Source: an uncultured Pelagibacteraceae bacterium (GTDB lineage: Bacteria; Pseudomonadota; Alphaproteobacteria; Pelagibacterales; Pelagibacteraceae). From it: a stretch of 64,000 bases of DNA. The stretch lies in NCBI GenBank assembly GCA_902590915.1, contig CACIYQ010000001.1:124001-188000 (forward strand), in the 5' to 3' direction. Positions 45,213 to 47,998 of the stretch are shown in pieces (position 1 is the first letter of the stretch; each line of letters starts with the position of its first letter). A program made the position numbers and the translations under genes. The notes beneath the pieces are model-generated. The model saw nothing but the letters and a program-made list of their open reading frames with translations, made no database searches and was not told the origin of the DNA.

Positions 45213-46142
45213 ATGAAAATTTTAGGGATTGGTAATGCAATCGTTGATGTTCTTTGTAAAGTTGATGATGAATTTTTAAATAAACATTCACTAACTAAAA
45301 GCACAATGAAACTTATAGATGAAATTGAGTTTAAAAATTTAATTAACGAAGTAAAAATTGAAGAAACTATTTCTGGAGGATCGGTTGCTAATTCAATTGT
45401 GGGGTTATCTCAATTGGGAAATGATGTTGGCTTTATTGGCAAAGTTAAAAATGATGATCTAGGTAAAAAATATGAAGAGGGTTTAAAAAAAGAAAATGTA
45501 AAATATTTATATTCAAAAAAGGATGAACCTTTGCCAACTGGCAGTTGCTTAATATTGATTACACCCGACTCTGAGAGAACAATGTGCACATTCTTAGGGA
45601 CTGCTGGAAAAATTAATGATAAAGATGTAAATTCAGAAGAGGTCAAAAAATCAGACATCACCTTTCTTGAAGGTTATTTGTGGGATGAAGGTGAGCCCAA
45701 AAAAGCCTTTGATAAAGCCATAAACAACTCGAATAAAGTTGCAATGTCATTATCAGATCTTTTTTGTGTCGAAAGGCATAAGTCACAATTTTTAGAAATG
45801 GTAAAAAATAGATTAGATATTACTTTTTGTAATGAACAAGAAATTAGCTCGTTAACAAATACCACAAAATTTAATGAAGTTATTTCATTTTGCAAAACTA
45901 CTAAAAGACTAATAGTGGTTACCCGAAGTGAAAAAGGTAGTGTCGCAATAAATGGAAATGATGTAGTGTACTGTGAAAGTAAAAAAAACTTAAATATTCA
46001 AGATTTAACTGGGGCAGGTGATCTTTTTGCTGCAGGTTTTCTTCATGGGTATATTAAAAATTTATCTTTAAAAGAAAGTCTTGAACTGGGTACAGACATG
46101 TCATCAAAAATTATTCAAAAAATTGGAGCTAGACTTAATTAA
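45213..46142 (+). CDS. PfkB-family sugar/nucleoside kinase (adenosine kinase-like)
   Basis: 309 residues. The N-terminal GNAIVDVLCKVDD, the substrate motif GGSVANSIVGLSQLG and the C-terminal PfkB signature DLTGAGDLFAAGFLHG with catalytic Asp are clear. This subfamily is often annotated as adenosine kinase-like or ribokinase-like; substrate cannot be decided. It starts two bases after nth, and its stop overlaps the convergent ArfA-like gene. Confidence 0.88.
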   Translation: MKILGIGNAIVDVLCKVDDEFLNKHSLTKSTMKLIDEIEFKNLINEVKIEETISGGSVANSIVGLSQLGNDVGFIGKVKNDDLGKKYEEGLKKENVKYLYSKKDEPLPTGSCLILITPDSERTMCTFLGTAGKINDKDVNSEEVKKSDITFLEGYLWDEGEPKKAFDKAINNSNKVAMSLSDLFCVERHKSQFLEMVKNRLDITFCNEQEISSLTNTTKFNEVISFCKTTKRLIVVTRSEKGSVAINGNDVVYCESKKNLNIQDLTGAGDLFAAGFLHGYIKNLSLKESLELGTDMSSKIIQKIGARLN

Positions 46143-46255
46143 GTTTTTTTACGCTTGAAGCTACCTTTCCCTTTTTTTGGTTTCACAATTTTTGGTTTAT
46201 ATTTTTTTGTATATAGTGATGATAAATAAGGGTTTTTTTTGTTTAATTTCTTCAT
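46139..46255 (-). CDS. arfA: Alternative ribosome-rescue factor ArfA-like microprotein
   Basis: A 38-codon gene on the minus strand, ATG at 46255, stop TAA at 46139-46141. The product is very basic: MKKLNKKNPYLSS..., then KPKIVKPKKGKGSFKRKKT. KKGKGS(Y/F)xRK is the hallmark of ArfA, preceded by the expected NP...(R/K)xxVxxx segment. ArfA enters the empty mRNA channel of stalled ribosomes and recruits RF2. E. coli ArfA is 72 residues (about 55 mature), so this is a minimal form lacking the C-terminal tail. It overlaps the PfkB gene by four bases and is divergent from the 2OG oxygenase. Confidence 0.72.
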   Translation of the reverse strand: MKKLNKKNPYLSSLYTKKYKPKIVKPKKGKGSFKRKKT

Positions 46256-46304
46256 TGTAAAGTTAATAATTATGATTAGCTTACAAAAATAACAAGATAT
46301 TTAA

Positions 46305-46934
46305 ATGATAACAAATAGAAAAATTTTAACATATTTTCCTCAGCCTATATTTAGGTACAAAGTTGATAATTATAAAACTTTTAATAAAGAATTAGAGGAA
46401 TATATTTACAAACTTAAGGAAGAGGATAGTGAAGGAGTAGTTAGATCTAACCGTGGGGGTTGGCACTCAAAATCTTTTAAAGTTAGAGAAAAAGGCACCA
46501 TACAAAATAGATTTACACAAGAACTATCTAAATACATTTTTGATGTTATACAAACTTATGGCTGGAAATGTGTGCCAGAGAGAGTGGTGGTTTCAGAAAT
46601 GTGGGCAATTATAAATAAACCAAGAGATTTTAATGTAATACATACCCATCCAAATGCATATTTAAGTGCAGCTTATTATGTAAAAGCCCCAGAAAGAGCA
46701 GGAAGATTTGTGATTGAAAACCCACTATCAGTAGCAAGGCACAGTTATCCAGCGTATGCAACAAAAACAGAATATAACATTAAAGCAGCGGCCTTAGATA
46801 TCGAGGAAGGAGATTTATTACTATTTCCTGCTTATCTTCCTCACAAAGTGAATGAAAATAAGTCTGATAAGGACCGAATTGTAATAAGTTTTAATGTCAA
46901 TATAAATAATTTTGACAATACTAATTTAGATTAA
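46305..46934 (+). CDS. Putative 2OG-Fe(II) oxygenase (TIGR02466-type)
   Basis: 209 residues. N-terminal YFPQPIFRYKVDN and the double-stranded beta-helix core: HTHPNAYLSAAYYVKAPERAG with the proximal His and the distal His-Arg pair LPHKV...DRIVISFNV. These fit a phytanoyl/prolyl-hydroxylase-like family found in marine bacteria and phages. The substrate is unknown. The 3' end overlaps the convergent regulator by 14 bases. Confidence 0.8.
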   Translation: MITNRKILTYFPQPIFRYKVDNYKTFNKELEEYIYKLKEEDSEGVVRSNRGGWHSKSFKVREKGTIQNRFTQELSKYIFDVIQTYGWKCVPERVVVSEMWAIINKPRDFNVIHTHPNAYLSAAYYVKAPERAGRFVIENPLSVARHSYPAYATKTEYNIKAAALDIEEGDLLLFPAYLPHKVNENKSDKDRIVISFNVNINNFDNTNLD

Positions 46935-47490
46935 TTTGATATCCATCTTTTTTACTTATTATAAAATTCTCTTTGTTAAATTTTTTTAAAATTTTTTTTC
47001 TCAAACGATAAATGTGTGTTTCAACAGTGTGCGTTTCAAGTTTGGAGTGATATCCCCACACCTCTAATTGTAGTTCATCAATGCCAACTGGTTTACTTAA
47101 TTTTTCTAAATAGTTAATAATTTTAATTTCTTTCTCAGTGAGTTTTAAAACCTCCTCATTTAATTTTAGTTCTCTTGAGTTTATATTTATTTGATATTTC
47201 CCTATGTTAATTTCCGATTTATGTTGATATTGATTTTTAAGAAACTGAATATTTACTTTTTCAATGAATTTAAAAATTTTAATTGGAAATTTTTCTAAAT
47301 TAAGGGTTTGTGAAATATTTTGATTTTTTTGAGTGGTTACAACAATGCAATTATCTATTTTATTTTGGAGTTCTTTGCATTGTTTGTCATTTGAAGCTTC
47401 AAACACATTTATATTTGTAATTATTTCAAGCTCTTTTAAAATATTATAAAAAGTTTTAAGTTTAAATATGATTAAGTTTTGTTTATTCAT
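46921..47490 (-). CDS. Orphan winged-helix regulator with a degenerate receiver domain
   Basis: 189 residues. The last roughly 95 residues are an OmpR/PhoB-type DNA-binding domain: LTEKEIKIINYLE, DELQLEVWGY, VETHIYRLRKKI and the wing ISKKDGYQIN. The first roughly 85 residues resemble a receiver fold, but where the phospho-acceptor Asp should be there is CIVVTTQ. No histidine kinase is adjacent. It therefore probably acts without phosphorylation. It is divergent from the L,D-transpeptidase across 13 bases, which may be its target. Confidence 0.75.
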   Translation of the reverse strand: MNKQNLIIFKLKTFYNILKELEIITNINVFEASNDKQCKELQNKIDNCIVVTTQKNQNISQTLNLEKFPIKIFKFIEKVNIQFLKNQYQHKSEINIGKYQININSRELKLNEEVLKLTEKEIKIINYLEKLSKPVGIDELQLEVWGYHSKLETHTVETHIYRLRKKILKKFNKENFIISKKDGYQINLN

Positions 47491-47503
47491 TTATACTTAA
47501 AAT

Positions 47504-47998
47504 ATGTTAATTTTATTAAAAAACAAACATACTCTTCAAGTCGATGATTTTTATTTCAAGTGTAGTATAGGCAAAAATGGGACTAGTAAAAAAAAGATTG
47601 AAGGAGATCTAAAAACACCTGTTGGAACGTTTTACCTTGAATATCTCTATTATAGAAAAGACAGAATAAAAAAGCCTGAAACAAAATTGAAATGTATTCC
47701 CATTCAAAAATATATGGTTTGGTGTAATGACATTAATTATCCTAAAAAATATAACAAATTGATTACTCATGGTAAAAAAGTCTCTCATGAAAAGCTTTTT
47801 CGCAAAGATCACAAATATGACTTATTAATCCCAATTAAATTTAATTTCCAAAAAAAAATAGTAGGTATGGGAAGTTGTATTTTTTTACATCTAACACAAA
47901 ACTACACGCCAACAGCTGGATGTATAGCATTGAGTAAAAAAAATTTTTTAATTTTATTAAAATTAATAAACAAAAATTCAAAAATAAAAATTAATTAA
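47504..47998 (+). CDS. L,D-transpeptidase (YkuD domain) family protein
   Basis: 164 residues. The catalytic segment FLHLTQNYTPTAGCIALSK keeps the His...(S/T)xGC Cys nucleophile of YkuD enzymes, and the N-terminal GKNGTSKKKIEGDLKTPVGTF is typical of the COG3786 branch. No signal peptide is evident. The family makes 3-3 peptidoglycan cross-links or lipoprotein attachments. TATACT lies six bases before its ATG; the stop overlaps yggS by four bases. Confidence 0.82.
   Translation: MLILLKNKHTLQVDDFYFKCSIGKNGTSKKKIEGDLKTPVGTFYLEYLYYRKDRIKKPETKLKCIPIQKYMVWCNDINYPKKYNKLITHGKKVSHEKLFRKDHKYDLLIPIKFNFQKKIVGMGSCIFLHLTQNYTPTAGCIALSKKNFLILLKLINKNSKIKIN

Follow-up and report, generated by a model that had tools for sequence, protein, structure and literature searches.

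Does a minus-strand ORF of 38 codons, lying between the genes for a PfkB-type sugar kinase and a 2OG-Fe(II) oxygenase in a SAR11 genome, encode a ribosome-rescue factor related to ArfA? SAR11 bacteria are among the most abundant in the sea, and the ORF was picked out in a sequence-only reading of the window (the whole stretch of 64,000 nucleotides analysed here, from an uncultured Pelagibacteraceae bacterium), which took its KKGKGSYxRK-like segment to be the core of ArfA. We found the ORF between those two genes, on that strand and at that length, at the exact coordinates given in Table 1, and we regard it as very probably encoding a minimal ArfA-type, release-factor-dependent ribosome-rescue peptide.

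Table 1. Positions in the window of the arfA-like ORF, its segments and its neighbouring genes.
Feature	Position	Strand	Basis
arfA-like ORF, 38 codons, ATG..TAA	46139..46255	-	PF03889 match, conserved
K27-R35 core, KKGKGSFKR	46151..46177	-	aligned with E. coli ArfA 33-41; dN/dS
N8-Y19, expected RF-facing segment, alignment A1 majority NPIAKDLFTKKY	46199..46234	-	Y19 opposite E. coli ArfA F25
4-nt overlap of the stop codons of the arfA-like ORF and pfkB (convergent)	46139..46142		coordinates
pfkB, PfkB-type sugar kinase, convergent neighbour	45213..46142	+	directly convergent in 23/29 relatives
2OG-Fe(II) oxygenase gene, between winged-helix gene and ORF	46305..46934	+	PF13759, 81.7 bits
Winged-helix gene (Trans_reg_C)	46921..47490	-	PF00486, 43.8 bits (window copy)

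Probable membership of the ArfA family

In the six frames of the window there is a single K[KR]GKGS[FY]x[RK] motif, and 200 first-order simulated windows contain none; across those 200 the shorter KGKGS occurred 12 times. When the window ORF was searched against Pfam with hmmscan, ArfA (PF03889) was the sole family retrieved at E ≤ 10, with an E-value of 5.8e-6. The score of this match, which covers only residues 19-37 of the ORF, lies narrowly above the family cut-off (26.1 bits vs 25.5, a margin of 0.6 bit), and this is the outcome of the family-model search that the sequence-only reading had proposed; in a six-frame search of the ORF's own genome the same model reached 24.7 bits, just below the cut-off. 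All 22 SAR11 homologues in our alignment A1 match PF03889 and no other Pfam family, a count of matches at E ≤ 10, whether above or below the cut-off. The profile of these 22 rows retrieved only ArfA from among PDB chains at E ≤ 10 (best E-value 0.0023, with 32 residues aligned without gaps), and its comparison by hhalign with 14 gamma-proteobacterial ArfA sequences gave a probability of 95.3 and an E-value of 2e-8. Set directly against residues 7-44 of E. coli ArfA, the window ORF is identical at 13 of 38 positions without a gap. A search of NCBIfam with the window ORF found nothing, PHROGs returned only weak matches to families of unknown function, and a fragment of E. coli ArfA, used as a tblastn query, retrieved three Salmonella records. 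The identification of the motif as the ArfA core is supported by the Pfam model, by the profile-profile comparison (95%) and by the conservation and purifying selection described below, and these comparisons strongly suggest a conserved minimal ArfA variant in SAR11 that has rescue activity.

The SAR11 peptide shares with E. coli ArfA the KKGKGS(F/Y)xRK core, the asparagine and the aromatic residue of the N-terminal part, and an ungapped register over 31-38 residues. The genes also end alike, as E. coli arfA and mscL have a 4-nt convergent overlap of their stop codons like that of the SAR11 ORF and pfkB; an antisense RNA effect of arfA on MscL has been reported in E. coli (PMC10070815). The two differ in genomic place, in host (the SAR11 ORF belongs to an alphaproteobacterium) and in length, with E. 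coli ArfA having 72 aa vs 38, and the SAR11 peptide is without E. coli residues 1-6 and all residues after 44. They also differ in control: the E. coli gene has a hairpin and a nonstop message and is controlled by tmRNA, whereas the SAR11 ORF has its own stop codon and no hairpin was found in it (the ORF plus 79 nt downstream folds no better than shuffled sequences, z 0.06). The lack of a C-terminal tail and of a hairpin, both noted from the sequence beforehand, was thus borne out, with residue 38 followed directly by the stop codon. A search of positions 45900-47600 for terminator-like sites returned a single one, at 46699-46686 on the minus strand, upstream of the arfA-like ORF, and none at the gene; with the ORF having its own stop codon and no better fold than the shuffles, we reject a hairpin-controlled nonstop gene.

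Hairpin and nonstop control is a mode of regulation and not the defining activity of ArfA. Because it has its own stop codon and no internal hairpin, the SAR11 peptide is, unlike E. coli ArfA, probably not silenced by trans-translation, and a putative constitutive activity of the peptide fits the absent hairpin. The peptide would work much like BrfA of Bacillus, which has been described as a small peptide acting in RF2-dependent rescue (PMC6881298). No BrfA chain was among the PDB matches at E ≤ 10, in a library that may not include BrfA.

Conservation, selection and gene neighbourhood

A very short ORF in A+T-rich DNA might be a chance or decaying frame, a reading with which the 20 near-complete genomes of the same genus that have no match (to the window ORF at E ≤ 1 or to the profile at E ≤ 0.01) would agree. 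We regard it as vanishingly unlikely, as the ORF is widespread, under selection and conserved in its place and start overlap. With tblastn, the window ORF matches 247/297 genomes of the family at E ≤ 1, including 106 of the 127 that are near-complete, and 237/297 at E ≤ 0.01 (ten of the 247 rows lie above 0.01). The 22-row profile matches 212/297 genomes of the order at E ≤ 0.01, a count that includes 14 weak matches in the sister family f2. Nor is the ORF unusually short, as had been thought: 39 sampled SAR11 copies are 34-45 codons long (median 36, taking the start codon nearest N8), and ArfT of Francisella has 40 residues, so an anomalous size is rejected.

For the selection analysis, 40 loci were picked by hand, and not at random, among the tblastn matches, and one (L197) was dropped for a mis-anchored frame. 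Over 18 disjoint nearest pairs, formed without a tree, the Jukes-Cantor dN/dS of the whole ORF is 0.137, and differences at codon positions 1, 2 and 3 number 79, 49 and 158 in the same 39-locus sample; on these two results the chance ORF was rejected. By segment, dN/dS is 0.174 for N8-P26 and 0.042 for K27-R35 (0.03-0.04 for the KKGKGS core), a core value that is partly conditioned, as the 39 loci were anchored on KGKG and all contain it. Relaxed selection on the KKGKGS segment, which would have spoken against the sequence-only reading, was therefore not what we found. We rely here on this KGKG-anchored run, made after an earlier one on loci with the KKGKG pattern from which 2 of 60 (L047 and L059) were dropped. 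Across 69 loci, R35 is present in 69 and K27 and S32 in 68 each, with K28-G31, the locus anchor, in 69; further toward the N-terminus, N8 and L14 occur at 69/69 loci, and position 19 is aromatic at 69/69 (Y at 67, F at 2).

The place of the ORF is also kept. In 26 of 29 relatives (L002-L030), a winged-helix look-alike directly abuts or overlaps the ORF on its upstream side, and pfkB, directly convergent in 23, is separated from the ORF by one gene in four (L017, L024, L025 and L029) and absent there in two (L021 and L022). In the window and in three of the 29 relatives (L003, L004 and L024), a 2OG-oxygenase-like gene separates the winged-helix gene from the ORF; in the relatives, winged-helix and oxygenase genes were identified by resemblance, with Pfam run on the window copies only. 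At the junction of the winged-helix, arfA-like and pfkB genes, the 2OG oxygenase gene is an insert that varies. By eye, oxygenase look-alikes were also seen on the opposite flank of the ORF in L017, L024 and L029. In the winged-helix protein of the window, Trans_reg_C covers residues 113-185, and no receiver domain was listed for the N-terminal half at E ≤ 0.1.

At 38 of the 39 sampled loci, the ORF starts within 25 bases of the stop codon of an upstream same-strand frame of at least 70 codons, and at 22 of the 39 the two overlap by exactly four bases (ATGA or TTGA type), the start codon being chosen in these counts as the one nearest to N8. These start/stop overlaps suggest translational coupling, and the ORF may be translated in concert with the upstream gene in most of the 39 sampled relatives. 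Such coupling would be lost in the window, L003, L004 and L024, because an oxygenase-like gene stands between the winged-helix gene and the ORF.

Among the 20 near-complete genomes without the ORF, pfkB was located in 17, and in 17/17 of these the locus is closed, with the winged-helix look-alike reaching pfkB so that its last codon lies 2-41 bases from the pfkB stop (L113 is cut by a contig end). The gene is thus not indispensable. Two of the 20, G003 and G017, appear in a search with a broad profile that includes both KGKGS and non-KGKGS forms; G017 gave no match, and G003 has a divergent ORF elsewhere, MSKKRKKVKKKNPMAKLLSSPMLRNKIVKNKKKIYNRKKFKLGNE, with an E-value of 4e-4. This divergent ORF, at L488 (G003:C1:28680-28787), has 45 codons and is of the NPMAKLL...KKKIYNRKK type; it had no ArfA match in Pfam and is perhaps a substitute for the missing arfA-like gene.

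Predicted action and partners in ribosome rescue

ArfA is largely unstructured off the ribosome. In the mechanism that we propose, a ribosome has stalled at the broken end of an mRNA and its mRNA tunnel is empty; the basic C-terminal part of the SAR11 peptide, K25-T38, in which 8 of 14 residues are K or R, would thread into this tunnel. N8-V24 would occupy the decoding centre and bring in a release factor, of which RF2 is the likeliest, and the GGQ loop of the recruited RF2 would then release the peptide. In E. coli, ArfA residues 31-48 have been placed in the mRNA tunnel and His21-Glu30 in the A site, with Leu19, Leu24 and Phe25 lying against W319, V198 and F217 of RF2 (PMC5378476). The same source reports that truncation of ArfA at Asn47 is tolerated and shorter forms are not, that truncation after Met40 abolishes release, and that A18T is inactive (PMC5378476). 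The last residue of the SAR11 peptide lies opposite E. coli Lys44, short of the tolerated Asn47 limit, which counts against our reading. Its residues 25-38 hold as many K and R as residues 31-48 of E. coli ArfA, so that the charge is packed into a shorter tail. Toward the release factor, E. coli A18, L19 and L24 are replaced by S12, S13 and K18 in the window ORF, and F25 by Y19. We expect the peptide to occupy the site that ArfA does and to act through RF2 with the same result, by way of a modified contact. We infer that the peptide is expressed, binds the ribosome, has RF2 rather than RF1 as its partner and acts in rescue; since it retains just a part of the hydrophobic patch that faces RF2, a strict dependence on RF2 is putative.

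A variant of this reading, overlapping the main one in its probability and in our view fairly unlikely, is that the peptide uses RF1, or either of the two release factors, in the manner of Francisella ArfT, with the KKGKGS tail reading the empty tunnel and the N-terminal part making a release-factor contact of its own. ArfT is an experimentally shown rescue factor of 40 residues that uses RF1 or RF2 (PMC6299226), so a peptide of that size can do the rescue job, also with RF1, and the loss of A18, L19 and L24 makes the RF-facing part of the SAR11 peptide unlike that of E. coli ArfA. Besides size, ArfT shares with the SAR11 ORF a basic tail (KKGGSTNKK in ArfT) and a regulation unlike that of ArfA; by its published description (PMC6299226), it differs in lacking KGKGS and in having nothing hydrophobic opposite F25. 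Against this variant stand the aromatic residue that all 69 SAR11 loci carry at the F25 position, where ArfT is without a hydrophobic one, and the release factors themselves. The RF2 of the ORF's own genome (P0003) keeps the V198/F217/W319 pocket of E. coli RF2 as I/F/W, along with SPF and GGQ, and SAR11 RF1 has HTSA at the place of the HTSF of RF2. RF2 remains the preferred partner in our reading. The SAR11 prfB gene (L043 about 500-520, G000:C11) has an apparent programmed frameshift site, AGGAGTATCTTTGA, as in E. coli prfB.

The peptide might also be a basic ribosome- or RNA-binding microprotein whose KKGKGS tail serves some other job, such as hibernation or assembly. It is short and strongly basic, it exceeds the Pfam cut-off only narrowly, and SAR11 sister groups contain related ORFs without the KGKGS tail. 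We consider this quite improbable in view of the 31-32 residues that align with ArfA without a gap, a viral homologue that scores 39.7 bits with PF03889 (over model positions 10-42 of 44), and a rescue machinery in which ArfB was not found. ArfB is recognised by a GGQ catalytic domain (a PF00472 feature), and the window ORF contains no GGQ. In a chosen set of 49 SAR11-family genomes (the 20 without the ORF and 29 others), the RF-1 domain model PF00472 gave no ArfB-sized match, with two matches in 45 genomes and one in four (G232, G258, G270 and G294). The same search returned a third match in two of three other Alphaproteobacteria (G683, 76 bits in 144 codons; G737, 75 bits in 157 codons), and E. 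coli ArfB scores 91 bits with this model. A further search of 26 genomes (the ORF's own, 15 of its genus and 10 of the sister family f2) gave no ArfB-like third match. One genome, G302, has in addition to one full match a 155-bit match in a 151-codon frame and a partial match of 92 bits in a 267-codon frame, and these two extra matches are read as pieces of a release-factor gene.

The alphaproteobacterial form of tmRNA was detected in the ORF's own genome (223.7 bits), in 13/13 near-complete relatives and in 21/26 genomes overall, one of these below the gathering score. Because ArfB was not found in SAR11, the arfA-like peptide is probably a backup to tmRNA. If so, and barring other factors, SAR11 strains with the gene should be able to dispense with tmRNA, which should be essential in strains that lack the gene. 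In a survey of 15,259 genomes, ArfA is reported in 0 and ArfB in 2,022 of 2,376 Alphaproteobacteria (PMC11633108), and SAR11, with an ArfA-like gene and no ArfB found, appears to be the reverse of this. As described, the survey used nhmmer on DNA (PMC11633108), and such a search could miss a 38-codon A+T-rich gene. Should the reading as a minimal ArfA hold, an ArfA that occurs in nature with 34-45 residues and has neither tail nor hairpin would be the smallest working unit of release-factor-dependent rescue.

Relatives in other Alphaproteobacteria and on marine viruses

PF03889 scores above its cut-off in 19/249 genomes of the phylum, in E. coli alone among 14 control genomes, and in 8/385 genomes of the class, namely G009 and G022 (SAR11), G580, G683, G538, G569, G614 and G790. 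The peptides behind these eight matches were read for all but G790; contamination is 7% in G614 and 10% in G683, and the match in G538 lies inside a 588-codon open frame. The broad profile, built in part from the window ORF and from several of the genomes that it matches, finds 25/318 genomes of the class at E ≤ 0.01. In the sister family f2 and the genus g5 (L080, L083-L085, L088 and L090-L092), we observed short basic ORFs with an NPxARxLRT-like N-terminus and no KGKGS tail. These non-KGKGS ORFs match the SAR11 profile in register (95.6%), and their direct profile link to gamma-proteobacterial ArfA is weak (18%).

Two of five tested sister-group ORFs (of the NPVARxLRTxKF...KK type) match DUF7230 (PF23876), a family of unknown function without a KGKGS tail, and do so weakly (19.9 and 16.8 bits vs a cut-off of 27); the window ORF, for which PF03889 was the only family at E ≤ 10, does not match it. 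DUF7230 was found above cut-off in 3/289 genomes of the class and in 0/14 controls, and we reject it as a general alphaproteobacterial ArfA on that class count. Our literature search found no paper mentioning DUF7230. Among the matches listed in searches for ArfA together with SAR11, Alphaproteobacteria or phage, only one paper joins ArfA and SAR11 (PMC12753301).

That paper concerns the pelagiphage HTVC027P, whose gp30 is described as called ArfA by Pfam and as highly expressed 3 h and 12-15 h after infection (PMC12753301). The gp30 protein contains NPVAKEVRTPKYKSQIIKPKKGRGSFKR, with the same core and register as the SAR11 ORF; it differs in being 58 aa long with an N-terminal extension, and in lying on a phage, where its gene adjoins the small terminase gene. 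It scores 20.2 bits with PF03889, below the cut-off. A tblastn search of phage records with the window ORF returned nothing, even though these records include HTVC027P and its gp30; the probable reason is that the lysine-rich peptide is masked by the low-complexity filter.

ArfA-like microgenes were seen on many marine virus contigs (L354-L466). A degenerate DNA pattern for KPKKG(x)GS(F/Y)K found 113 stretches in IMG/VR, with the viral nature of the contigs taken from the collection and not contig by contig. Open frames of fewer than 140 codons, resembling short ORFs of the SAR11 type, contain 112 of the 113, and in 109 of these 112 ORFs the residue six places ahead of the K that opens KPKKG is aromatic, like Y19. 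When a genome collection was scanned for KPKKGKGSFKR, at least 120 stretches came up, and the 80 among the matches listed are all titled Pelagibacter or Pelagibacteraceae; the patterns used on both collections require KPKKG and are blind to other tails. The presence of copies on viruses suggests that marine phages benefit from bringing ribosome rescue with them into an infection. It is possible, if somewhat short of an even bet, that the SAR11 ORF, the marine-virus ORFs and the alphaproteobacterial ORFs of the NPxAxxL(R)..K(Y/F)..K..KK type, with and without KGKGS and including those resembling DUF7230, form one large, largely unrecognised superfamily of release-factor-dependent rescue microproteins, which would have replaced ArfB as the backup to tmRNA in SAR11 and whose phage copies would keep host ribosomes recycling during the breakdown of host mRNA.

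On one viral contig (L407:2888-2995), the arfA-like ORF follows a clamp-loader gene; after it come two ORFs, then another clamp-loader gene and then a gene for a translation repressor. We take this gene order to be T4-like. The PHROGs matches of these neighbours have E-values, in gene order, of 6e-123 (clamp-loader), 1e-41 (second clamp-loader) and 5e-61 (translation-repressor). By eye, the ORF order on L374 and L422 is similar to that on L407, and the contigs look like the same phage.
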